A DNA stretch of 42,410 nt from a virus: IMG/VR virus record IMGVR_UViG_3300025108_000116, positions 1 to 42,410 of that record; one strand, given 5' to 3'. Positions 1,289 to 41,226 of this stretch are shown piece by piece. The translations under genes and the position numbers were made by a program. Every line of letters begins with the position of its first letter. Within the stretch, counting starts at the first letter, position 1. The notes below the pieces were generated by a model. It searched no databases. It saw only the letters and a program-made list of their open reading frames with translations, and had not been told where the DNA came from.

Positions 1289-1317
1289 TTGACAAAAGAA
1301 GTATAATAATATATAAT
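1289..1317 (+). promoter_or_regulatory. Consensus sigma-70 promoter for the late operon
   Basis: TTGACA at 1289-1294 and TATAAT at 1312-1317 are both perfect and separated by exactly 17 bases. It faces the first plus-strand gene at 1515, predicting a transcript start near 1324 and a ~190-base leader. A second TATAAT at 1302-1307 is too close to the -35 box to be used with it. Host RNA polymerase recognition is implied. Confidence 0.8.
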
Positions 1318-1727: not shown

Positions 1728-3293
1728 ATGTTAGATTTAGAAGTAGATGAAAATAGAACACCAGAAGAAATACACAATGTAACTCTATTTCTGGACCTAA
1801 GAGAAAAGATGCATCACTATGCAAACATAAAGGCAAAGGATGACTTCCTTACCTTTGTAAAGATATTTGCTCCTACCATTGTTTCTGACTTTAAGATGGG
1901 AAGACACATAGAACTACTATGTGAAAAGCTACAGGGTGTGTTAGATGGTAGTACAAAAAGACTTATGGTATTCTTACCACCCCGTTCTTCTAAGTCAGTA
2001 ATATGTAGTAAACTATTTCCTGCGTGGTACATTGGTAACTTTGGTCACCATGAGATTATGTCTGTCTCACACAGTGACCAGCTTGCAAGTGACTTTGGTA
2101 GAACTGTACGAGACATTGTAAACACAGACAGGTTTCAAAAGATATTCCGTGGTGTGTCTCTTAGAAGTGATGTGAAGGCAGCAGGTAAATGGAAGACAAA
2201 TAAAAACGGGTCTTATTATGCAGCAGGTGTAAGAAGTCAGGTTGCGGGTCGAGGTGCTCACGTAGCATTACTAGATGATGTTATGTCTGAAGAAGACAGC
2301 TTCAGTGAAGCAGGTAGACGTTATATTAAGGAATGGTATCCTGCAGGTCTACGTACTCGTATTATGCCTAATGGTGCAATCATTATTATTAATACAAGAT
2401 ATCACTATGACGATTTGTGTGGTTGGCTGTTAAAGCAAGAACAGAACGCAGAAGAAACGCCAAACCCTTGGGAAGTAATTAGTATACCTGCGTGGCTTAA
2501 TGAAGAAGCAGCAGAGCTTCTTGACTTACCAGAAGGTTCTTCTTACTTTCCTGAATGGAAACCAGACGAGCTATTAAAGATAGATGAGATGGAGATTAGA
2601 AGTTCTAATGGTAGTAGATACTGGAACTCTTTATATATGCAAGACCCATCACCTGATGATGGTGGTATTATTAAAAAGAAATGGATAAGTTGGTGGGATG
2701 ATGATGAGCCTCCACCATGTGACTTTATAATACAGACATATGATACTGCTTTTAGTACTGCACGTACTGCTGACTATAGTGTAATACAAACATGGGGAAT
2801 ATTTAGGTCATATGAAGAAGATGAATATGGAACAGAACAAATAACTTCTAACTTAATACTATTAGGTAATATAAGAGGTAGATTTGAATATCCAGAACTA
2901 AGACGTAAAGCACAAGAAGTATATGCACAATATAAACCAGATGTATGTATAATAGAAAAGAAAGCTTCTGGTCAGTCTCTTATTCAAGACATGAGAAGAG
3001 CAGGTCTTCCTGTATTAGACTATCTTCCAGATAGAGATAAGGTTGCTCGTGTCTATGCTTCTACTCCTTTGATGGAAGCAGGTCGTGTATGGATACCAAA
3101 AGACAAAACATGGTCAGACGATTTGTTTGCTGAATGTATGTCTTTTCCTGCAGGTTCACACGATGATCAGGTAGATTGTATGACAATGGCAATTCATTAT
3201 ATGAAGGACAGTTGGAACTTAATACATCCAGAAGACCCGGAATGGGAAGATAGCCCAAGAACAAAAAGAAGGGTTGCATATTGGAGAACATAA
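1728..3293 (+). CDS. terL: Terminase large subunit (packaging ATPase/nuclease)
   Basis: Motor protein that cuts concatemeric DNA and drives it into the prohead through the portal. The ATPase half shows a P-loop-like PPRSSKS at 84-90, a Walker B segment ALLDDV at 180-185 and the motif NTRYHYDDL at 222-230. The nuclease half has an RNase H-like acidic set: D339 in QTYDT, E410 in CIIEKKASG and D479/D480/D483 in HDDQVD. The 521-residue length is normal for the family. The P-loop lacks the usual glycine before the lysine (SSK instead of GK), a deviation worth noting. The start follows the preceding stop directly, with GGAG eleven bases upstream. The small subunit is not adjacent but lies at 36658-37170 on the other strand. 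Confidence 0.95.
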   Translation: MLDLEVDENRTPEEIHNVTLFLDLREKMHHYANIKAKDDFLTFVKIFAPTIVSDFKMGRHIELLCEKLQGVLDGSTKRLMVFLPPRSSKSVICSKLFPAWYIGNFGHHEIMSVSHSDQLASDFGRTVRDIVNTDRFQKIFRGVSLRSDVKAAGKWKTNKNGSYYAAGVRSQVAGRGAHVALLDDVMSEEDSFSEAGRRYIKEWYPAGLRTRIMPNGAIIIINTRYHYDDLCGWLLKQEQNAEETPNPWEVISIPAWLNEEAAELLDLPEGSSYFPEWKPDELLKIDEMEIRSSNGSRYWNSLYMQDPSPDDGGIIKKKWISWWDDDEPPPCDFIIQTYDTAFSTARTADYSVIQTWGIFRSYEEDEYGTEQITSNLILLGNIRGRFEYPELRRKAQEVYAQYKPDVCIIEKKASGQSLIQDMRRAGLPVLDYLPDRDKVARVYASTPLMEAGRVWIPKDKTWSDDLFAECMSFPAGSHDDQVDCMTMAIHYMKDSWNLIHPEDPEWEDSPRTKRRVAYWRT

Positions 3294-3337
3294 GTATATA
3301 ATAACAATTAACTGGACTCAATTAAGAAGGAAGTAAA

Positions 3338-5836
3338 ATGGCTATTGAAAAAAATCCTAATGACCCTATTGGTAAAGAAAATGTTATTCAATTAAATATT
3401 GAACAAAACGAAGAAGATTTTCCAAATGTAAATTTTGAAGTAGATTCAGAAACAGGCGAACTAGAAGTAGAGTTTATGCCAGAAATGGATTTACAAGATA
3501 TAGACAATATTGTAGATTTTAATATTGAAGACGAATTTTATTCTAACCTTGCCGAGCAAATAGAAGAAGACGAACTTATTAGTATCGGTGAAGAAGTTTA
3601 CGAAAAATACGAAGCAGATAAAGAGTCACGGGCAGAATGGGAATCCATGTTTGAACGAGGCTTTGACCTGCTTGGTTTGAAACTGGAAGAAACTACAGAA
3701 CCTTTTGAAGGTGCAGCAACTGCTGTACATCCACTACTCATAGAGTCTGCGGTTAAATTCCAGAGCCGTGCATCCCAAGAACTATTTCCTTCCAGTGGCC
3801 CAGTTAAAGCTCAAGTTCTTGGTGATGTATCGGTTGAAAAACAACAACAAGCAAATCGTGTTCAAAACTTTATGAACTATCAGTTGACTGATAAGATGCC
3901 AGAATACTTCGATGAGTTTGAGCGTATGTTGTTTCATTTACCATTAATTGGTAGTTCATTTAAAAAGATTTATTATGATGGTTCAGTAGAGCGTCCTGTT
4001 AGTGAGTTTGTTCCTATTGACCAGTTCTATGTATCTTACTATGCCACAGACCTAAGACGGGCTGATAGGTATACTCATGTTCTATATCGCAGCCCTCGTG
4101 AGATTGCAAACGCAATGTACTCAGGTATGTATGCAGAAGTAGAACTACCTGATGCATATATCCCAGAACAATCAGACCTAACACAAAAAATGGACACAGT
4201 ACTTGGTTTGTCTCCTTCTTCCGATACAGATATGCAGTATGTTCTTCTTGAACAGCACTGTTATCTTGATATTGAAGGTCATGGTTATGAATGTCCTTAC
4301 ATTGTAACTATTGAAGAAACAACACGTAAAGTACTGTCTATTCGTAGAAACTGGAATGAAGAAGATAAAAATAAAGAAAAGAAAATGTTCTTTACTCATT
4401 ATCGTTTTGTTCCGGGATTTGGTTTCTATGGTCTTGGTCTTATTCACTTCCTTGGTAACCTTACAATGTCTGCCACTGCAGCTATGCGTAACCTTATTGA
4501 TGCAGGACAGTTTGCTAACTTGCCCGGTGGCTTTAAAGCAAAAGGTGTTCGCATTGTAGGAGACAATGACCCTATTGCTCCGGGTGAGTTTAAAGAAGTA
4601 GAAGCAACAGGTATGGACTTGTCTCGTTCAATTGTACCTTTGCCTTATAAAGAACCATCAGGCACATTATTCCAAATGCTTCAGTTTGTCTCAGGAGCAG
4701 GTCAAAAGTTTGCTGATACTACAGAGCAAGTTATTACAGAAGGTTCTAACTATGGTCCTGTAGGTACAACTATGGCATTGCTTGAGGCTTCTAGTAAGTT
4801 CTTTAGTGCAATTCATAAACGATTACATAAATCACAACGGGATGAGTTTAAAATTCTTGCACGTATTAACTATGAAAGTTTACCTGCTAAATATCCTTAT
4901 GATGTTCCCGGTGTAAGTGAAACAATTTTTAAACGTGACTTTGATGGTCGTGTTGATGTACTTCCTGTATCTGACCCTAATATTCCTTCGTCTGCCCACA
5001 GGTTGATGATGGCACAGATGGTTATGCAGCAAGCACAGCAATCACCACCCGGTATGTTTAATATGGAAGAACTAAACCGCACACTTCTTAATGCGGCAAA
5101 CATTCCTAACTTAGACAGGATACTTCCACAAAAGCCAGAGGCACAAGCTCTTGACCCTGTAACAGACATTGAAGCAGCAACTAAAGGTCTTCCTATTAAA
5201 GCATTTGCAGGACAAAATCATGATGCACATATTCAAATTAAAACTATGTTTATGCAAGACCCTGCTAATGGTGCCAACCCAATTATGCAACGTGTAGTTC
5301 CTATTCTACAAGCTAACATACAAGAACACGTAGTAATGAAGTATGAAGAGCAGATTAATGGTTTAACACGTCAAATGATGGCACAAGCACCACAAGGTGA
5401 CCCTAATGCTCAGAACCCACAAGTTATTGAACAGGTAATGATGGCAGCTGCACAGCAAGTAATGCAAGCTAATCAAGCTGCAGCACAAAGAGGTCCATCA
5501 CCTGAACAAGCAATGGTTCAGATGGAAGCACAAAGACTTAGTATTGAACAAGAAAAGGTACAGGCACAACTTGCTAAAGAAGCAAGTGAAGGTGCTTTGA
5601 AGAACCGTGACCTTGACTTGAAAGAACAGAAGCTGGCACTTGACGCATATAAGATTGGTGCAGAGGGTACACTCAAGGCTGACGAGAAAGAAAAAGACAG
5701 AAATGCCAAAGCAGCTATTAAGGCAGTAGAACTTCTTGCAGATATGGTAAAGCATGAAGACAATCTTGAAAGCTCAGAAGCTGCTAAAGCAATTGATGTT
5801 ATTAGTAAAATGATTTCAGGCACAAAGAATAAATAA
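3338..5836 (+). CDS. Portal protein (P22-like, 832 aa)
   Basis: Dodecameric ring at the capsid vertex through which DNA enters and leaves. Identification rests on position right after TerL, on the conserved region with EPFEGAATAVHPLL and SRASQELFPSSG near residues 120-155, and on the long helical C-terminus. The N-terminus (1-90) is strongly acidic. Residues from about 670 are rich in Gln, Met and Ala, turning into a charged coiled coil to the end, which fits the barrel helix of long P22-type portals. A good AAGGAAG ribosome-binding site precedes the ATG. The 44-base gap before it carries an ATAACAATTAACT string also found before the gene at 9790. Its stop overlaps the next start by one base. 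Confidence 0.9.
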   Translation: MAIEKNPNDPIGKENVIQLNIEQNEEDFPNVNFEVDSETGELEVEFMPEMDLQDIDNIVDFNIEDEFYSNLAEQIEEDELISIGEEVYEKYEADKESRAEWESMFERGFDLLGLKLEETTEPFEGAATAVHPLLIESAVKFQSRASQELFPSSGPVKAQVLGDVSVEKQQQANRVQNFMNYQLTDKMPEYFDEFERMLFHLPLIGSSFKKIYYDGSVERPVSEFVPIDQFYVSYYATDLRRADRYTHVLYRSPREIANAMYSGMYAEVELPDAYIPEQSDLTQKMDTVLGLSPSSDTDMQYVLLEQHCYLDIEGHGYECPYIVTIEETTRKVLSIRRNWNEEDKNKEKKMFFTHYRFVPGFGFYGLGLIHFLGNLTMSATAAMRNLIDAGQFANLPGGFKAKGVRIVGDNDPIAPGEFKEVEATGMDLSRSIVPLPYKEPSGTLFQMLQFVSGAGQKFADTTEQVITEGSNYGPVGTTMALLEASSKFFSAIHKRLHKSQRDEFKILARINYESLPAKYPYDVPGVSETIFKRDFDGRVDVLPVSDPNIPSSAHRLMMAQMVMQQAQQSPPGMFNMEELNRTLLNAANIPNLDRILPQKPEAQALDPVTDIEAATKGLPIKAFAGQNHDAHIQIKTMFMQDPANGANPIMQRVVPILQANIQEHVVMKYEEQINGLTRQMMAQAPQGDPNAQNPQVIEQVMMAAAQQVMQANQAAAQRGPSPEQAMVQMEAQRLSIEQEKVQAQLAKEASEGALKNRDLDLKEQKLALDAYKIGAEGTLKADEKEKDRNAKAAIKAVELLADMVKHEDNLESSEAAKAIDVISKMISGTKNK

Positions 5837-32500: not shown

Positions 32501-33266
32501 AGAAAAGTTTTTAACTGAAGCAGTTATTAATGCTTATCGTGGTGTAGATGCAGAAGGTAATGAGCTTAGTACTGAAGAAAGAGTAAAGGGTCTTTTGTCT
32601 GTAGGTATTCCGGGAAGTATTAAAGCAGGTCAAAAATATCTTAATGCTAAACAGTCTGAAATGTTACGTGGAGAAGGTCGTGGTCAAACTGCTGCAGGGT
32701 TTCCTATGCGTAAAGAAGATGCAGCAACTTTCTTTTCAACAGGTATAAGAAATAATACTATGAACTTAGATAAGTCTGTTAGCTATAGTCTTTATCAAGA
32801 CTCTCAAGAAATAAATAATGCCTCAAAAGAATTTTCTGCTTATTTAAAAACTGTTGCTGATAAACAACTTACACAACAAGATGTTGATGATATACTTGAA
32901 AAATATGTAGAAACACAAATGGCTAAAAAAGAAGCTATGGCTCGTATGTCAGATAAAGTTAATGTTTTTAGAAATGTAGAGTTTTATGAAAAGGGAAAAG
33001 ATGGTAAAATATATAAAACAAAGTATGGTATTGATGGTATAGTTAAAGCTTCTACAGGTAAAGGTAAATATAAAATTAACCCTAACTTAATATATGGACT
33101 AGCTCAAGGTGATAAAGGTCAAGGAGTATTTATACCTGATAGTATAAACTCAGGTCAAATTAAAAATATGTTGGTAGAAAGAAAGTTTCCACCAGAGTTA
33201 ATTCAAGGACTTAAAAGATTAGAGGGTGCTCTAACAGGACAGCCACTAAGAAAGGTAGCAGAATAA
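29508..33266 (+). CDS. Large internal virion (ejectosome) protein (1252 aa)
   Basis: By size and place this corresponds to the biggest ejected core proteins of short-tailed phages. It is largely helical, with a small N-terminal domain (KAQLKELLEAQGINFNQFMS), a hydrophobic Gly/Ala region near 165-250 (AIAGGIIAIPAAIAFKLLKG) that could enter a membrane, a long helical body, and a basic C-terminal domain with GKYKINPNLIYGLAQGDKG. I see no lytic transglycosylase Glu motif or peptidase site, so any cell-wall enzyme is elsewhere. It begins four bases after the previous gene and overlaps the next by one. Confidence 0.75.
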   Translation: MAIAPNTQEFYNLKQSVESEITAGNIKTKAQLKELLEAQGINFNQFMSVDKEYERRKKEGTLTEDTTFDLGKIVGSAVGKAAEDVGQVGGDVIEFIGGKETRKTVEGAFQDAANFLDETLPTEITYAAKETFDPRVNLGEDVAAEIGSYAVPAAGLTKATKFIKPKTRAGRLAKGTGIGIGADVLSRGEDETFVTEFAALVPESEEVLQQLAIDPDDGVAERRLKQIVDSAIAGGIIAIPAAIAFKLLKGGSRRLLGKFNAVRNEGITTPITRTPTATATRATVEETSPGIFNQRGQISQAVAKINTKLGRALTSTAGLPKPIFDSVIRKNQFVQASSALIQKEARALEKALKNSDVDKQLVNRLLTGETLSAQEMAQIPENIIKQVMRMRTKIDNNSRRILDALNLPDDNKLRAVIDPDTGGAYLTRTFEFSTNPKWSKNIAKAIKNELSDTPHNADVLSAVRNAQIHLAKNNPSLSSEQINGLIMNLVDRGKKDTSFNVLSELISNGTGGPAAKILRGRKDLDRPILELLGEVKDPVRNFTETMTNQNKLIAKANYIKDIKNFAEQNVGKDVKIKGLLPFLPEETATFLRKAEITPSGLDVRESLESLAQKELGAFGAGGEAVGLNKFVTTKQFSDMLEKGIDTFGVDNPVGKGWLNIFAKPAAVGQAMETVFDHTAHLVNTYGMVQQLAMNGVLYRPRVVKEAINSAKAMYEKAAKGDEETLKFLQALKNRGIIDSSVVAENIKKNIDRFGDGAEGVEGAITKAIKAPFRGMSAVYGGVDDYGKIVAFQAEYNAYKKAFPNLADEEIFNKATETVRNTMPSYTTAAPVVRALARLPFGTYATFPAEMVRTTKNILMQGARDIAEGKRTNNPELIKIGMRRLAGLGATTAGIEYAIRNNNSQNGISENEIRAVNLTVPDYQKNTEKVFTQPFYKDPVTGEIMTRFIDSGTLDSMQYIKGPTRAIIARILAGEDITQRELDDALPDAIAELYSPFVSEKFLTEAVINAYRGVDAEGNELSTEERVKGLLSVGIPGSIKAGQKYLNAKQSEMLRGEGRGQTAAGFPMRKEDAATFFSTGIRNNTMNLDKSVSYSLYQDSQEINNASKEFSAYLKTVADKQLTQQDVDDILEKYVETQMAKKEAMARMSDKVNVFRNVEFYEKGKDGKIYKTKYGIDGIVKASTGKGKYKINPNLIYGLAQGDKGQGVFIPDSINSGQIKNMLVERKFPPELIQGLKRLEGALTGQPLRKVAE

Positions 33267-34504
33267 TGGCAAACAAGAAAAAGAAAAAGACAAGCACAAA
33301 AGGTTTAGCAGGTATTCCTGTTTATGGTTCTAACTCTAATTCAGGTGAAGATATTCGTCTTAATAAAAAGGTTAAACCTAAAAAAGTAAGTGGTATTGTT
33401 AACTATTTAGGTGATACAGAAACAGTTACTGTGCCTAAACAGTGGTTGTCTTCTCCTGACCATGTAGTTGCAGAGCTTGCTTATATTACACCTGCTGAAC
33501 AAAAGATACTTCTTGAAGCTAACTTGTATGGTTCTCTTAAAGGTAAACCTAATAGTGGTCCGGGTGGTTTGATGTCATTACAAGGTGGTGGTGAACAAGA
33601 AGCTAAAGACGCAGGTGCTAGTAATACTAGTCAAGCTTCTTCATCTGGTAGTTCAGGTGGTGGTGGAGGAAGCAGCAGTAGTTCTTCTTCTAGTTCTAGC
33701 TCAGATGATGGTGGGGCATATGACGATGATGATGCAGATGCAGAACTTGCAGAAATGTTTAATCAAGATGTTGCTACTAGAGGTAGAAGTGTAGATACAG
33801 GTAGACCTTCTCGTGCAAAGTTTGGTGGATATGACCCAAGTAGAGATGATGAAGAGCAAACTTCTGCTATAACTATTCGTAGCTATGACCCAAATACAGG
33901 TAAGGGTGGTGATTTTTTAAGTGAACAAGGAAGACAAGATTTAAATGTTCTTGGTGAAAAAGCTGCTGAATACTTTCAAGGTCCTGTTACAAAAGCAATT
34001 CAAAAAGCAGAAAAGTTTTCTCCTTTAGCTATGTTAGCTAGAACTATTGGAGATGTTCCTAGTATTACAAGAACTAAATCAGGGCTTGCTGCAGGTAGAA
34101 TTGGTCAAATGCAAACAGGTGTACAAGCTGGGGGTATTGTTAAATATGATAGTGCAGGTAATATTTCTCATGTGGAAATGCCTGATGGTAGTAAGGTAGG
34201 TGAAAAACCAACTTTTGATACTTCTGATAGTAAAGATAATAGTAGTCCAAAACCTAGCACATCTGGTGCGCCAATACCCAAAGCTCCCCCTGCGGTTACA
34301 CCCAATGCTTATTATCAGAAAGGTGTAGGTACACAGACCATTGACTTGTCTGACCCTGTACAACGTAGATTATATTTACAAAATCTTATTGGTGGTACGT
34401 CTAGTCCAATAGGTGGTTCATTTAATCCTTTAACAGCTACATATTCTATGCCAGATGGTGGTCAAAGAAAAGTATCAGGATTAGATATATTCAAGAGAAA
34501 ATAA
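33266..34504 (+). CDS. Low-complexity virion-associated protein with Ser/Gly linker (412 aa)
   Basis: A basic N-terminus (NKKKKKTSTKG) is followed by a helical piece with LAYITPAEQKILLEANLYGS, then a long Ser/Gly run and acidic stretch (about 120-165: GGGGGSSSSSSSSSSSDD, YDDDDADAELAEMF), then polar segments with QGPVTKAIQKAEKFSPLAML and a Pro/Ser-rich C-terminus. The LSDPVQRRLYLQNLIG segment near the end looks folded. It belongs with the internal virion proteins by location; the linker suggests two domains held flexibly. Unrecognised family. Confidence 0.7.
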   Translation: MANKKKKKTSTKGLAGIPVYGSNSNSGEDIRLNKKVKPKKVSGIVNYLGDTETVTVPKQWLSSPDHVVAELAYITPAEQKILLEANLYGSLKGKPNSGPGGLMSLQGGGEQEAKDAGASNTSQASSSGSSGGGGGSSSSSSSSSSSDDGGAYDDDDADAELAEMFNQDVATRGRSVDTGRPSRAKFGGYDPSRDDEEQTSAITIRSYDPNTGKGGDFLSEQGRQDLNVLGEKAAEYFQGPVTKAIQKAEKFSPLAMLARTIGDVPSITRTKSGLAAGRIGQMQTGVQAGGIVKYDSAGNISHVEMPDGSKVGEKPTFDTSDSKDNSSPKPSTSGAPIPKAPPAVTPNAYYQKGVGTQTIDLSDPVQRRLYLQNLIGGTSSPIGGSFNPLTATYSMPDGGQRKVSGLDIFKRK

Positions 34505-34713
34505 TGGAGAGTCAGTCATTAATAACAGACAAGAAAACTTATCAAAAAAACAGACGGTACATGGCTTGGTCTGCTCTTGCAATGATGCTTGTAGCAACGA
34601 TAGCTGTACTTGTAAGCCCGGAAAGGTTTGCAAGTGCCGAAGCAATACTGATGATGATGTATGGAAGCCTATCGGCACTAGTCGCATCTTATTTTGGGTT
34701 TAGTAAAAAATGA
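34504..34713 (+). CDS. Candidate holin (69 aa, two membrane spans)
   Basis: Two hydrophobic segments, about residues 20-37 (MAWSALAMMLVATIAVLV) and 43-64 (ASAEAILMMMYGSLSALVAS), joined by a short charged turn, with a basic cytoplasmic-type N-terminus and a Lys-Lys end. Size and topology fit class II holins. It overlaps the lysozyme gene by four bases (ATGA), the classic holin-endolysin pairing. A holin would open the membrane for the lysozyme, which has no signal peptide. Confidence 0.75.
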   Translation: MESQSLITDKKTYQKNRRYMAWSALAMMLVATIAVLVSPERFASAEAILMMMYGSLSALVASYFGFSKK

Positions 34714-35195
34714 AGTATAGTGAATCACATTTTTTAGATAAGCTTATTGAACATGAGGGAATGGTTCTTACTGTCTACAAGGATACCCTTGGCATAGACA
34801 CAGTAGGAATAGGAAGAAATTTAAAAGACCGTGGAATAAGTAAAGAAGAGCTTGACTACATGGACTATCCTAGTATAGATGCTGTTTATGAACATGGTAT
34901 TACAGAAGCAGATGCACGTTACCTAGCAATGAATGATATTAAAATTGTAGAACGTGAACTATGTGCAGTACATAAATGTGTAGAAGACCTAGATGGTGTA
35001 AGACAATTAATACTAATGGACATGGCTTTTAATATGGGTGTTCCAAGGTTATGTAAATTTAAAAAAATGTGGAATGCTATACATGAAAAAAACTGGGAAG
35101 CCTCATCAAGGGAAATGTTAGATTCCAGATGGGCGAGACAGGTAGGACAACGTGCTAAAAAACTAAGCGAAGCTATGAAAGCAGGAGAATTTTAA
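34710..35195 (+). CDS. T4-type lysozyme endolysin (GH24, 161 aa)
   Basis: Cell-wall hydrolase that cuts the N-acetylmuramic acid to N-acetylglucosamine bond. The catalytic triad of T4 lysozyme (Glu11, Asp20, Thr26) is matched in kind and spacing by E16, D25 and T31 in LIEHEGMVLTVYKDTLG and the following IDTVGIGRNL. Length equals T4 lysozyme (~164). The AFNMG motif (near 106-110) and SRWARQVGQRAKKLSEAM at the end are also family features. No signal peptide, so release depends on a holin. Confidence 0.93.
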   Translation: MKYSESHFLDKLIEHEGMVLTVYKDTLGIDTVGIGRNLKDRGISKEELDYMDYPSIDAVYEHGITEADARYLAMNDIKIVERELCAVHKCVEDLDGVRQLILMDMAFNMGVPRLCKFKKMWNAIHEKNWEASSREMLDSRWARQVGQRAKKLSEAMKAGEF

Positions 35196-36342: not shown

Positions 36343-36726
36343 ATGTTAAACCTTCTCGTAGGACCAATTGCAGAATTAGCAGGTACTTGGCTGCAAGGTT
36401 CGGTAGAAAAGACAAAAGCAAATGCAGAAGCAAAGGTAGCCAAAGCAAAAGCTGAAGCTACCATCATGGAAAAAAAAGCCACTGGAGAAATCGACTGGGA
36501 TTTGGAAATGGCAAAGGGAAGCCACACGTCATGGAAAGACGAATGGCTTACTATTCTGTTTTCAATCCCATTGATTCTTGCTTTCATTCCGGGTATGGAA
36601 GACTTAGTAGCTAATGGATTTGCTCAACTAGAAGCAATGCCTGAGTGGTATCAATACTCACTCGGCATCATTGTCGCTGCCAGCTTCGGTGTCCGTAGTG
36701 CTACTAAGTTCTTCGGTAAGAAGTAA
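36343..36726 (+). CDS. Holin-like membrane protein (127 aa)
   Basis: A helical Ala/Lys-rich segment (about 20-46, with KANAEAKVAKAKAEATIMEK), a conserved-looking WKDEWLT at 64-70, then membrane spans at about 69-84 (ILFSIPLILAFIPG) and 104-118 (YSLGIIVAASFGVRS). This matches the layout of the 3-TM holin family described for gene transfer agent release and found in many marine phages. An AGGAGA ribosome-binding site fixes the start. Its last 69 bases overlap, on the opposite strand, the end of the small terminase gene; no terminator separates the two operons. Confidence 0.75.
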   Translation: MLNLLVGPIAELAGTWLQGSVEKTKANAEAKVAKAKAEATIMEKKATGEIDWDLEMAKGSHTSWKDEWLTILFSIPLILAFIPGMEDLVANGFAQLEAMPEWYQYSLGIIVAASFGVRSATKFFGKK

Positions 36727-37170
36727 CTCTTCTTCTTGTTCTTCTTCTCCATCATTAAACTCATCTGGAAAAGCCTCTGCAAAAAGAAGAAAGCATTGGT
36801 CAAAGCCTAGTGCTTGCATAATACCTTTGATGTCTTCTTCCAAACTTTCTGTTGTCTGATCATCTACATCTGTATTATTACCACGAACACGAGACAATAG
36901 TTCTAAGGCTTTTAAAGCTGTTGTTCCATGCCCACCATTACGAGCTACTTCATATTGCTTCTCAATCTCACTGACCACATCTACATTGGTCACCATTTCA
37001 TTTGTAAGTTCTTTTAATCTTTCTTGGATACGTTCTTCTTGTAAAAGTCTATGCCCTTGATTATAAGCAGATGATTCACTATATCCTGCAGCCTTTGCCG
37101 CCTTTGTAGCATTTCGACTGAGGACATAGTTCTGGCAAAACTGCTCTTGTTTATCATTAAGCTGCGACAT
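36658..37170 (-). CDS. terS: Terminase small subunit (170 aa)
   Basis: Recognises phage DNA and starts packaging by the large subunit. The N-terminal LNDKQEQFCQNYVLSRNATK followed by AAKAAGYSESSAY and RIQERLKEL is the helix-turn-helix region of the Terminase_2-type small subunits. A central helical part follows, and the C-terminal 60 residues are highly acidic (GEEEQEEELLLTEE). The start lies 14 bases inside the end of the upstream fusion gene, so translation is coupled. It is about 34 kb from terL and on the opposite strand, and its final 22 codons overlap a convergent gene: both unusual. Confidence 0.88.
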   Translation of the reverse strand: MSQLNDKQEQFCQNYVLSRNATKAAKAAGYSESSAYNQGHRLLQEERIQERLKELTNEMVTNVDVVSEIEKQYEVARNGGHGTTALKALELLSRVRGNNTDVDDQTTESLEEDIKGIMQALGFDQCFLLFAEAFPDEFNDGEEEQEEELLLTEELSSTTDTEAGSDNDAE

Positions 37171-39454
37171 TTAGTAACTCAGAGTAATGTTTTTCTTGAC
37201 CCCTCTTAGAAGATTTCCAAACTTCTGAGCACAATGTTCCTTCACCATGAAAGACTACACCCATGTCAATTTCCATTTGGTCAAAAAGTTTTTCACAGTC
37301 TTGTGCCATAGCAAGTAGCTCACCAGTAGTCCAGAAGTGATTGTTGTTTAGTTCTACCTTCATGTATTTAGGTTTACTCTGTTCTGTATCTGTAGTTTCT
37401 TTTTTCATTTCTTCTGTTACTTCATCTATAGAACAATCAAAACCAAACAGTTCAAAGTTACGGAAGCCAAGAGTATGTCCAATGGCAAGTGTTCTCATGG
37501 CTGCACAAGTCCCACCTGTAATGAGAGTAGAACCCTCGTCAATACCTGTAGCCTTGTCTACTACAATCTTATCTTTTACTTCCATATCACGTAAAGCATC
37601 TGAGTATGCTTGCCATCCTTTTACATTAGCTTTCTTTTTTATAAGATGCTTAGTAACAGAAGGGTCAGTCATAGAAGCAACAAGGAAAATAGTTTCTTGG
37701 TCTACCTTCTTAAATAAATCTTTACGTTTTACACCATGTGTACTAACACCATCAATAGGTCTAGGGTCAAGTATCACACAAGCAAATGGTTGAATACCAT
37801 TCTCAATCAAACGTGGATAGCTATGCTTGACACAGAATACCTTATTGTTTGTTGTAGCAATACGTTCTTTTAGTTTATCAAAATTAATGTTACCACCAGA
37901 TACAATAATTGCTGTTTCATTATTTACTTTACTTGTTTTAATCCAATCAAAATCTTTTATTAACTTTCTATTTTCTTTTACATTATTAATAATTTCTTCT
38001 TTAGGTCTTGAATCTTTAGGTGTAACCAAAATAGGTACACGAGTTAGTTCGTCTGGTAGTTTAGGAAGTCCCTTCTTGTTAGCTACAAAACAAAGATGTG
38101 TAATGCCACCACCAAGAACCCCGTCAGAACTAGGCAATACCACTTTTCCATAAGCTTCTACCTCTTTCATTAACTTGTTAACACCTAGATGTTCCTCTTT
38201 AGGAAGGTTACCATTCTTATCTTCTGAAAAGTAATCATCAAAGACAACAACAGGAACGTGTTCCTTTATGTTTTCCCAATCTGCTTTTACCGTTTCATAA
38301 GAATGTCCACCATCTATGTAAGCAAAGTCTGCTTCTTTAAGTTTGGCACAAGCAGGAACAGTTTTCTTACTATCTCCTTTGTGTAACTCATAGGTAAACT
38401 TTTTTTCTGTGCGTGACATTCTATAAGAGAAATCATCCAACCGTCTTTCAACAGCTTCTACCATGTTGTGCGCCTTGCTGTTCATTTCATATTCATCTGA
38501 CTGTTCTGTCGCATCCTGAAACAAATCAAAACCAATATAATGCACTTTGTCTGTGTTTTCAAAAGCAGCCAGAGCCATTTCAATAGCACGTCCACCATTC
38601 CATGTACCTGTTTCTACAATAGTACTAGGTTTATAAAAGCGTACTATATCTGCAAGTTGCTTGTATCTTTTAGGACCAGTAACATCTGGTGCAACTTCTG
38701 TACTACTAAGTTTCTTTTTTAGATTACCTTTATAGTGGTCAAAGTATTCAGACAAAGGTGACTGAGCAAAGGCTGCTAGTCCTTTGGCGTGTTCAGATAA
38801 ATTTCTTGTGACCATTCCGTGGGCTTTGTAGATGTTGAGGAGTCGTTCAAAAATGAATCCATCATGCCACTCTCTATATGCAATGGTTTCTCCAATAGTG
38901 TAAGCACCTCTAAAATCAGCAATGATGCTGCAAGTATTGTGAGAAGATAGGTTAAACCCAAGAAAACTTGTTTCACTATAGTCTGCATCCTTTCTTCCAA
39001 GATGTACTAAGTCTGCTTTATCTGGAAGCCACTTAGGAAATTGTTTTACATCTAACCTTTTAGTTGTTACTGTATCTGCATCTAACCAAATCATCCAGTT
39101 ACTTTCGTCATGTACTTCTTCTTCCATCATTTCAAATGCAAGGTCTGATAGAGCATAAACTTTGTGACACCACTTAATTGCATCTAGCCTCCAATTATAT
39201 GGCTGTGTTCCACCATGCGTACCGTCATATGTCTTCATACGTTCACGATACTGAACCATTTCTGTTATGTCGTTAAGATTGCGATAATGAATATTATCAG
39301 CCACAGGAGCATCGACATCTTTAATGTCAAAGTCATGGTAATAGGCATATAATTGAAAGTGTTTTGGATTCCATTTTTCTGTAACACTTTCCAACATTTT
39401 CTTAGCATATTCATGGTATCCGCTTTCACTAAATGAGGTTACAAATATATACAT
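37157..39454 (-). CDS. Three-domain fusion: glycosyltransferase-like, SAM methyltransferase, MAF/DUF115-like (765 aa)
   Basis: Domain 1 (1-245): glycosyltransferase-A-like with WLDADT (DAD at 125-127, metal/sugar-nucleotide site). Domain 2 (about 255-460): class I methyltransferase; the SAM loop is VETGTWNGGRA (280-290), with the acidic strand end at FD (309-310) and FAYIDGGHSYETVKADW (377-393) as in Methyltransf_24 enzymes. Domain 3 (about 510-765): similar to DUF115/MptE-like motility accessory factors, with TAIIVSGGN (514-521), FACVILDPR (557-565) and TGGTCAAMRTLAIG (646-659). MAF proteins transfer nonulosonic acids to flagellin. Likely role: building or attaching a methylated sugar on host surface, virion or DNA. 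Coupled by TAATG to the upstream glycosyltransferase and overlapping terS. Confidence 0.8.
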   Translation of the reverse strand: MYIFVTSFSESGYHEYAKKMLESVTEKWNPKHFQLYAYYHDFDIKDVDAPVADNIHYRNLNDITEMVQYRERMKTYDGTHGGTQPYNWRLDAIKWCHKVYALSDLAFEMMEEEVHDESNWMIWLDADTVTTKRLDVKQFPKWLPDKADLVHLGRKDADYSETSFLGFNLSSHNTCSIIADFRGAYTIGETIAYREWHDGFIFERLLNIYKAHGMVTRNLSEHAKGLAAFAQSPLSEYFDHYKGNLKKKLSSTEVAPDVTGPKRYKQLADIVRFYKPSTIVETGTWNGGRAIEMALAAFENTDKVHYIGFDLFQDATEQSDEYEMNSKAHNMVEAVERRLDDFSYRMSRTEKKFTYELHKGDSKKTVPACAKLKEADFAYIDGGHSYETVKADWENIKEHVPVVVFDDYFSEDKNGNLPKEEHLGVNKLMKEVEAYGKVVLPSSDGVLGGGITHLCFVANKKGLPKLPDELTRVPILVTPKDSRPKEEIINNVKENRKLIKDFDWIKTSKVNNETAIIVSGGNINFDKLKERIATTNNKVFCVKHSYPRLIENGIQPFACVILDPRPIDGVSTHGVKRKDLFKKVDQETIFLVASMTDPSVTKHLIKKKANVKGWQAYSDALRDMEVKDKIVVDKATGIDEGSTLITGGTCAAMRTLAIGHTLGFRNFELFGFDCSIDEVTEEMKKETTDTEQSKPKYMKVELNNNHFWTTGELLAMAQDCEKLFDQMEIDMGVVFHGEGTLCSEVWKSSKRGQEKHYSELLNVAA

Positions 39455-40230
39455 TAGATTACTTCTCCTACTAGTTTATCCATAAACACTTTGCTTTTAA
39501 ATGCTTGCCATTCACCAGCATATTCAGTGTCTGATTTGCGTTTACCTTTCCAATCATCAAACCAAGGACCACCTGTAGTAAAGTGTACGTTCTTAGGTAA
39601 GATATTTTCTGGTGACCATCCGTCCAACCAATTCCACTCTGGTTCAATAGAACCTATTTCATTGTCAGACAACCAAGAGAAGCCATGCAACCAGCTACCT
39701 GTCTTTGTGTTTACGTCATCTACAGTTAGGTTAAGATTAGATGGGTGAGAACAATTCCAAAGAACAAAGCTAGACCAGTTCTTACGATTATAATTCTGTT
39801 GTACTTGTCCATCCATCTTTAGACCTTCGTTAGGTCTGTAGTTATGTTTGACTACTTGAACAGCAAACTCTTCACGTTTACCATAGGTATTAAATAGTTC
39901 TTCAATATCCCAACGTACAAACATATCTGCATCCATAAACAATGCAAGACCGTCATACTGATTAAGGGCAGGAACTAAGAAACGTGTAAAGGTAAAGTCA
40001 GAACTGAAAGGTCTGCCATCACATTCATCTATACGAACAGGTGATTCAGCATTACTATCGAAACGAATAGTACGCCTATACAGACCTGCTCTACGTAATG
40101 CAGGTTGTACGAGAGGGATAATGTCAAACTTTTCATTGTACTGAAGAATTGATTTACGTAGTACTTCATAAGCCTCATGCTCCCTTGCATCATATCCAAT
40201 ATAAATTACTGGTCTTTTCTCTGTAAACAT
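39454..40230 (-). CDS. Glycosyltransferase, GT-A fold (258 aa)
   Basis: Predicted sugar transferase. The N-terminus VIYIGYDAREHEAYEVLRKS is a nucleotide-sugar binding start, PFSSDFTFTRFLVP precedes the DXD site in LALFMDADMFVRWDIEELF, and the later FVLWNCSHPSN and GGPWFDDWKG segments are typical of small phage GT8-like enzymes. The start is the ATG at 40230, because an in-frame GTG at 40242 would leave no room for the AAGGTG ribosome-binding site. It is the first gene after the promoter at 40264-40292, and its stop overlaps the start of the three-domain gene, so the two probably act in one pathway. Confidence 0.88.
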   Translation of the reverse strand: MFTEKRPVIYIGYDAREHEAYEVLRKSILQYNEKFDIIPLVQPALRRAGLYRRTIRFDSNAESPVRIDECDGRPFSSDFTFTRFLVPALNQYDGLALFMDADMFVRWDIEELFNTYGKREEFAVQVVKHNYRPNEGLKMDGQVQQNYNRKNWSSFVLWNCSHPSNLNLTVDDVNTKTGSWLHGFSWLSDNEIGSIEPEWNWLDGWSPENILPKNVHFTTGGPWFDDWKGKRKSDTEYAGEWQAFKSKVFMDKLVGEVI

Positions 40231-40263
40231 AATAATACACACCTTTCAATTATAACTACTATA

Positions 40264-40292
40264 ATTATACTTAAACAATTTATAGTTGTCAA
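40264..40292 (-). promoter_or_regulatory. Consensus sigma-70 promoter for the glycosyltransferase-terS operon
   Basis: On the minus strand TTGACA (40292-40287) and TATAAT (40269-40264) are perfect and 17 bases apart, with predicted start near 40257, about 27 bases before the ATG at 40230. The -35 box overlaps the stop codon of the 41-residue gene. It has the same boxes and spacing as the late promoter at 1289. Confidence 0.85.
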
Positions 40293-40417: not shown

Positions 40418-41065
40418 TTATTTCTCACTCTCAGTTTTCCAAAAGTAATCTTCACTGTCTCCCAATGTTCCCCAATCTGAGAAAGGATTTTCTACTTCAT
40501 AATATTCTGTAGATACTTTGAAGTCAGGTGTCTTCACTTCTTTAGGTGATAAGGACACATCATATATTCTCATTCTATTGTTAGGATATAAACAGTACTG
40601 TCCATTCTCAAGCTCAAGACAATTAAATGACTTATGCTCTTGAGGTACTTCACTAACATTACAATCTACTTGCTGAATGTTCTCATGCAGATTGTCTAAT
40701 GTGAAAAGATACTTACCACCTATCATTCCATGCCTCTTTGTTCGAGCTTGAAAGCCCATAGAGCCTATGAACTGTTTCTCAATGGCGGTTACACCATAGT
40801 CCATGCAGTTCCAGAACTGTAGCTCGTCCAGAGGAAGGTCAGGGTCTGGTAACTTAGGCTCTGAAACAAAGGCAGAGATAGGAAGTTTATCATACATAGC
40901 TGCATAGCTAGGAAGATATGTTTCAAAGTAAAAGGTTCTACCGGGCAACGACTTTGCCGTTACCCAGTATCCCTCTACAAATTCACCATGTCCAGACTGA
41001 TGGTCTGTTAGATATTCTTTTCTTACCCATACTTTAGTAGGGGGTATGTTTACTATGTTACTCAT
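40418..41065 (-). CDS. Conserved hypothetical protein near ribonucleotide reductase (215 aa)
   Basis: The start is set at 41065 by a TAATG overlap with the 53-residue gene; an in-frame ATG at 41074 lies inside that gene. Soluble protein with aromatic, Pro-rich segments: NIPPTKVWVRKEYLTDHQ, SLPGRTFYFETYLPSYAAMY, LPLDELQFWNCMDYGVTAIE. I recall proteins of this type near nrd genes in marine phages with no tested function. No enzyme motif is evident; no membrane span. Confidence 0.75.
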   Translation of the reverse strand: MSNIVNIPPTKVWVRKEYLTDHQSGHGEFVEGYWVTAKSLPGRTFYFETYLPSYAAMYDKLPISAFVSEPKLPDPDLPLDELQFWNCMDYGVTAIEKQFIGSMGFQARTKRHGMIGGKYLFTLDNLHENIQQVDCNVSEVPQEHKSFNCLELENGQYCLYPNNRMRIYDVSLSPKEVKTPDFKVSTEYYEVENPFSDWGTLGDSEDYFWKTESEK

Positions 41066-41226
41066 TACCACCATCCCATCTTTTGTGTGTTATGAAATAT
41101 AATTGCTAGACAGGCAAGGACATGAAGAACAACCCAAGCAGTTCTAAGTATTGCTACTTTGTTTGCTTTGGCATTATCGTCATATGCCTTGCTGCCCATT
41201 GCTTTACACCAGTATTCCCACATCAT
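41065..41226 (-). CDS. Small membrane protein coupled to ribonucleotide reductase (53 aa)
   Basis: ATG at 41226 overlaps the reductase stop (ATGA), and its own stop overlaps the next start (TAATG), so the gene is embedded in a translationally coupled series. The product begins MMWEYWCKAMGSKAYDD and has one membrane span at about 24-44 (VAILRTAWVVLHVLACLAII) with a short polar end. This small gene is often missed. Function unknown; regulation of host membrane or anchoring are guesses. Confidence 0.75.
   Translation of the reverse strand: MMWEYWCKAMGSKAYDDNAKANKVAILRTAWVVLHVLACLAIIFHNTQKMGWW

Follow-up and report, generated by a model that had tools for sequence, protein, structure and literature searches.

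Genes at the locus

The IMG/VR record IMGVR_UViG_3300025108_000116, whose full 42,410 nt we call the window, comes from an uncultured tailed phage of marine type (42.4 kb, GC 37.6%). Its minus strand carries a putative glycan operon, which begins with a gene for a GT8-type glycosyltransferase (GT) and continues with a gene for a fusion protein of three predicted enzyme domains (Table 1). The two genes share one base (TAATG), and the 3' end of the fusion gene overlaps the following gene, for the terminase small subunit (TerS), by 14 nt. The first gene starts with an ATG at 40230 and has an alternative GTG start at 40242. A sequence-only reading had described the open reading frames, their coordinates, the motifs and the overlaps correctly, while the TerS gene falls outside the range it quoted.

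Table 1. Features of the window, with positions in nucleotides and residues in window numbering
Feature	Position	Strand	Basis
GT8/GT-A-type glycosyltransferase, 258 aa, first operon gene	39454..40230	-	Pfam PF01501, phrog_28018, homologues, model
Three-domain fusion, 765 aa: GT-A + Methyltransf_24 O-methyltransferase + DUF115/Maf-like domain (predicted)	37157..39454	-	Pfam, AlphaFold/Foldseek, alignments
Predicted N-terminal GT-A domain, residues 1-250, D125-A-D127	38705..39454	-	Model, Foldseek, unfused homologues
Predicted middle class-I O-methyltransferase domain, residues 255-460	38075..38692	-	Pfam, Foldseek, motifs
C-terminal DUF115/MptE-like domain, residues 480-765; S519-GG, D563-PR, GG648-T, D673	37160..38017	-	Pfam, Foldseek, weak PseD match
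Terminase small subunit TerS, last gene of the transcription unit in the window's clade	36658..37170	-	PF03592, E 9e-18
Perfect sigma-70-type promoter TTGACA-17-TATAAT, upstream of the GT8 gene	40264..40292	-	12/12 matches
Second perfect promoter, upstream of the TerL/portal/structural operon	1289..1317	+	12/12 matches

The same phage is represented by another IMG/VR record, G001 (54.5 kb), which matches the window at 99.9% identity over 41.5 kb. Its extra content is the replication half of the genome, with a T7-like primase/helicase, DNA polymerase A, endonuclease I and ribonucleotide reductase (RNR). The GT8-fusion pair comes after the RNR gene and closes this replication-side gene block. 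In the related contig G005, the contig ends fall inside the fusion gene; because the gene spans them, the genome must be either a circle or circularly permuted. The structural genes are less than 60% identical to those of phages of Pelagibacter, Roseobacter, Gammaproteobacteria and cyanobacteria.

The perfect promoter proposed for the operon held up: two 12/12 sites occur in the window, against 0.01 expected from shuffles. Among 81 distinct regions upstream of the GT8 gene in relatives, 13 keep all 12 matches and 26 more keep 11, and since it is kept in so many relatives, the promoter is not a product of chance. In several other subclades it is weak or missing. The longer record G001 has just two 12/12 promoters, before the glycan operon and before the structural operon, and both are also present in G008.

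Three predicted enzyme domains on one polypeptide

Pfam supports the second and third of the three proposed enzyme domains, and structural comparison supports all of them. Methyltransf_24 (PF13578) covers residues 280-408 of the fusion (E 6e-12, 46.8 bits, cut-off 26.3), and the MptE-like family, formerly DUF115 (PF01973), covers residues 487-677 (E 5e-14, 53 bits, cut-off 34.6); residues 1-250 have no Pfam match. An AlphaFold model built from 34 homologues covers all three regions and is mostly confident (mean pLDDT, a per-residue confidence score, 78). Foldseek matches to the PDB include alpha-1,3-galactosyltransferase (GT6) and LARGE1 for a GT-A domain, and Rv0187, TomG and COMT for a methyltransferase; the Maf glycosyltransferase 5mu5 is among the best matches (E 7.7e-7, with no aligned residues given). 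Searching solved structures with a sequence profile of the fusion returned a weak methyltransferase match and nothing else.

The N-terminal domain is thus predicted to adopt a GT-A fold, with its DAD motif at residues 125-127. The middle domain is a putative metal-type class-I O-methyltransferase of the Methyltransf_24 kind, which keeps the S-adenosylmethionine (SAM) loop TGTWNGGRA at 282-290 and the metal-site motifs YIDGGHSYE, at 379-387, and VFDD. It resembles the TylF/Methyltransf_24 metal-dependent sugar O-methyltransferases in its Pfam score above cut-off, its invariant SAM and metal-site motifs and its predicted COMT/TomG/Rv0187 fold, but differs from them in being fused between two GT domains.

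The C-terminal domain is Maf/Cst-II-like in fold but lacks the full-length Maf architecture. It passes PF01973, the family of the central domain of the Maf/PseD flagellin nonulosonic-acid transferases (PDB 5MU5), and its model matches the Maf structure. Those proteins, however, have their own N-terminal Rossmann-like domain and C-terminal helical bundle, and neither a GT-A domain nor a methyltransferase. The NCBIfam model of the flagellin-modification protein PseD matches residues 506-621 (E 8.8e-6) with 24.6 bits against a cut-off of 670. The earlier assignment to DUF115/MAF stands for the family and the fold. Could this domain instead be an MptE-type pyrophosphokinase, or a non-catalytic acceptor-binding module, leaving the fusion with one GT, a methyltransferase and a targeting domain? 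The Pfam family is named after MptE, and conserved residues cannot by themselves tell the chemistry. We nevertheless consider this unlikely in view of the Foldseek match to Maf and the weak PseD match, and because the PF01973 central domain of Maf resembles the sialyltransferase Cst-II (PMC11339370); moreover, pterin chemistry has no evident place next to two GTs and a sugar methyltransferase. Each domain of the fusion belongs to a known kind of enzyme, and what is new is their combination.

The partner enzyme falls just below the cut-off of PF01501 (24.1 bits against 24.3, E 3e-5) and matches phrog_28018 with an E value of 7e-54. A GT of Pelagibacter phage Mosig, 41% identical to it, passes PF01501 with 30.9 bits. 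The DxD motif of the partner enzyme lies at residues 100-102, and both D100 and D102 are invariant across 20 homologues. Its model, of low confidence, matches UGGT, LgtC and GlyE, to which we give supportive weight only. Neither the GT8-type protein nor the fusion has a membrane-like segment.

Conservation of the gene pair

IMG/VR scans found relatives in 302, 409 and 569 stretches; these lists overlap, and retrieval covered the top 80 of each. The proposed three-domain order recurs in all of the distinct full-length fusions among the retrieved loci (115/115), and the GT8 gene precedes the fusion in every full-length locus with room upstream, which bears out the coupling to a separate glycosyltransferase. 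Conversely, all 70 new loci fetched through the GT8 gene carry the fusion. Conserved active-site residues had also been anticipated, and in alignments reaching down to 45% identity the catalytic motifs are invariant: D125-A-D127 in the GT-A domain, E281, GTWNGGRA, D310 and DGGHS in the methyltransferase (DD406-407 nearly so), and, in the DUF115 domain, the four motifs listed in Table 1. In comparisons with four relatives, the ratio of nonsynonymous to synonymous substitution rates (dN/dS) lies at 0.04-0.13 in every fusion domain taken separately and at 0.05-0.08 in the GT8 gene. Low ratios in each domain and invariant motifs show that all three domains are maintained under purifying selection.

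The carriers are uncultured phage sequences; the fusion operon is in none of the isolates of the collection searched, and of the fusion's domains, the N-terminal GT-A domain alone has relatives in named phages. One scan of cellular genome contigs gave 27 pattern matches, none of them a relative, and we reject a cellular origin or prophage relatives on this ground.

TerS is a neighbour of the pair

The sequence-only reading took co-expression with TerS as a pointer to packaging, and a functional link, in which glycan building is coupled to packaging or to the procapsid, would fit the window's own clade: about 90 of the 115 distinct full-length loci have TerS after the fusion, in the same orientation and in many cases with an overlap. 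A sister clade (~52% identity; L097-L109, L195-L206) tells otherwise. There, 17 distinct loci with at least 698 nt of sequence beyond the fusion lack TerS at this place. In G006, a member of this clade, TerS (3740-4123) adjoins the gene of the large terminase subunit, TerL (2067-3563), and lies ~19 kb from the intact pair, which is found at 22.9-26.0 kb. The conserved unit is the GT8-fusion pair, and TerS is its neighbour; in the window's clade it is the last gene on its strand, convergent with the late operon. The clade comparison largely refutes the functional link, which we reject as very improbable, and overlap of a gene with TerS need not imply one.

In the window's clade, TerS and TerL (1728-3293) are far apart on opposite strands, and in G006 they are adjacent. 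Judging from gene order, this difference probably reflects gene relocation within one phage group. In the TerS-less clade, the end of the fusion gene is overlapped by a gene for a 191-aa protein with no Pfam or PHROG match (L108:8228-8803, +). The same locus carries an iron-sulphur assembly pair, IscU/NifU_N (E 2e-54) and IscA-type Fe-S_biosyn (E 4e-19), at L108:9792-10507 (-).

What does the operon modify?

Three GT active sites and one O-methyltransferase point to a short glycan that includes a methylated sugar, and the missing membrane-like segments point to cytosolic synthesis. The three domains, the GT8 pairing and the shared promoter all favour the earlier idea of a methylated-glycan builder. 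In the mechanism that we propose, each GT would contribute a sugar: the GT8-type enzyme one, the fusion's GT-A domain another, and its Maf/Cst-II-like domain a third or a cap. A sugar hydroxyl would be methylated by the Methyltransf_24 domain, the order of these reactions being presumed. Donor sugars would come from the host, since no member of the CMP-sugar synthetase family was found in nine related contigs. The acceptor would most likely be a virion structural protein, by analogy with the chlorovirus capsid protein Vp54 (see below) and with the mycobacteriophages that glycosylate capsid and tail tube, a precedent for phage virion decoration cited in PMC12619734.

We give roughly even chances to the reading that the enzymes of the operon, soluble and cytosolic, form an assembly line that makes an O-methylated glycan, most likely on a virion structural protein. 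Perfect promoters at both the glycan and the structural operons, shared with G008, fit timing with virion assembly. Unfused relatives lie in glycan clusters, as in Mosig, or near terminase, portal or capsid genes: in podovirus ct7QV12, an unfused GT-A homologue stands near genes for a TibC-like GT, a methyltransferase and an aminotransferase, directly before the large terminase gene, and in ctDrO704 a GT8 homologue lies between the major capsid and tail-stabilisation genes and adjoins an FkbM methyltransferase gene. Several points weigh against this reading. The model of the GT8-type protein is of low confidence (pLDDT 66), and the pair, which closes the replication-side block, has no conserved place next to capsid or tail genes. 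A candidate O-glycosylation acceptor, which we leave as an idea, is the Ser-rich protein encoded at 33266-34504, but its Ser/Gly runs are variable and poorly conserved among relatives. Lastly, soluble GTs could equally act on host lipid-linked or core glycans at the inner face of the membrane.

This last point leads to the main rival explanation, less probable but a serious one: the same enzymes may alter a host surface glycan, such as a lipopolysaccharide (LPS)/core or capsule precursor, so that the receptor is changed and superinfection or re-adsorption of progeny to debris is blocked. LPS core is the target of GT8 relatives such as LgtC, which with GlyE is among the structural matches of the GT8-type protein; the pair has its own host-type sigma-70-like promoter and sits on the replication-side strand; and loci for surface glycans commonly include Methyltransf_24 enzymes. 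However, among the annotated genes of the window and G001 we recognised no flippase, membrane GT of the GtrA/B/C type, acyltransferase or polymerase. Nor was an integrase recognised, so long-term serotype conversion would be of little use.

A third possible target is the phage DNA itself, with GTs that glycosylate a hydroxylated base and a methyltransferase that caps the product. DNA glycosylation is known in phages, as in the alpha- and beta-GTs of T4 and in the work of Pyle et al. 2024 as cited in PMC12619734. Here it is improbable: the thymidylate-synthase/dCMP-hydroxymethylase family (PF00303) was found in none of nine related contigs, which may be incomplete, in a search whose positive control worked; the fusion and the GT8-type protein resemble oligosaccharide and flagellin GTs rather than T4-type DNA GTs; and the chief argument for DNA, the link to TerS, is lost in the sister clade. 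A Tet/JBP search was uninformative, as its control gave no match.

Relation to known systems

The closest design that we found is A064R of the chlorovirus PBCV-1, one protein that holds a GT-A rhamnosyltransferase, a second rhamnosyltransferase and a methyltransferase, and that builds, with separate cytosolic GTs, a methylated glycan on the major capsid protein Vp54 (PMC9614988). Like A064R, the phage fusion is predicted to be a cytosolic viral protein that combines a DxD-containing GT-A domain, an unlike second GT and a class-I SAM methyltransferase, with separate single-domain GTs as partners. The order differs, however (GT-A, GT, methyltransferase in A064R; GT-A, methyltransferase, GT in the fusion), the second GT of A064R belongs to a new rhamnosyltransferase family and not to Maf/DUF115, and its hosts are algae. 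We regard the two as analogous, with a likeness of domain design that appears convergent, not as homologous.

Among phages, the cluster of Mosig EXVC030M (MT647606, Mosig_00183-00191) has adjacent homologues of the GT-A domain (26%) and of the GT8-type protein (41%). There, the genes are unfused, two FkbM methyltransferases stand in place of Methyltransf_24, a sulfotransferase and further putative GTs are present, and a DUF115 domain was not recognised. A protein probably of the same three-domain kind is A0A6J7X5Q0 in BFVD, from an uncultured Caudovirales phage; it has 714 aa, is 32% identical to the fusion along the entire predicted structure, and is named 'Methyltransferase domain containing protein'. 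This kind of fusion is thus already in databases under a generic name. A literature search for DUF115/MptE-like proteins in phages returned nothing relevant.

Neighbouring genes

The virion-operon protein encoded at 33266-34504 (+) has 412 residues, long Ser/Gly runs (SSSSSSSSSSS) and no Pfam match. The phage encodes two cell-wall enzymes, an early-region Hydrolase_2 (L180:2614-3045, +) and a late-region lysozyme-like protein (34710-35195 in the window, +). Adjoining RNR, the window has a phrog_3704 ('ferredoxin') gene without a Pfam match (40418-41074, -); this gene also adjoins RNR in Mosig, whose copy is 47% identical to that of the window. In L165 and L178, a stretch distantly similar to phrog_3704 lies between the GT8 and fusion genes.

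Implications

What emerges is a conserved, unnamed operon, found in hundreds of sequences from uncultured phages, with enzymes that should together produce a small methylated glycan in full. We raise, as a tentative proposal, that this widespread phage group arrived by independent evolution, in convergence with giant algal viruses, at an A064R-like glycan assembler made of one polypeptide, and that its virion bears a methylated, possibly nonulosonic-acid-capped glycan, a type of phage virion glycan of which we found no description in the literature searched. If the virion is the target, the operon would be the phage counterpart of the capsid-glycan enzyme A064R, and would allow virion glycosylation to be tested in environmental phages, for which the roles of phage GTs are mostly guessed.

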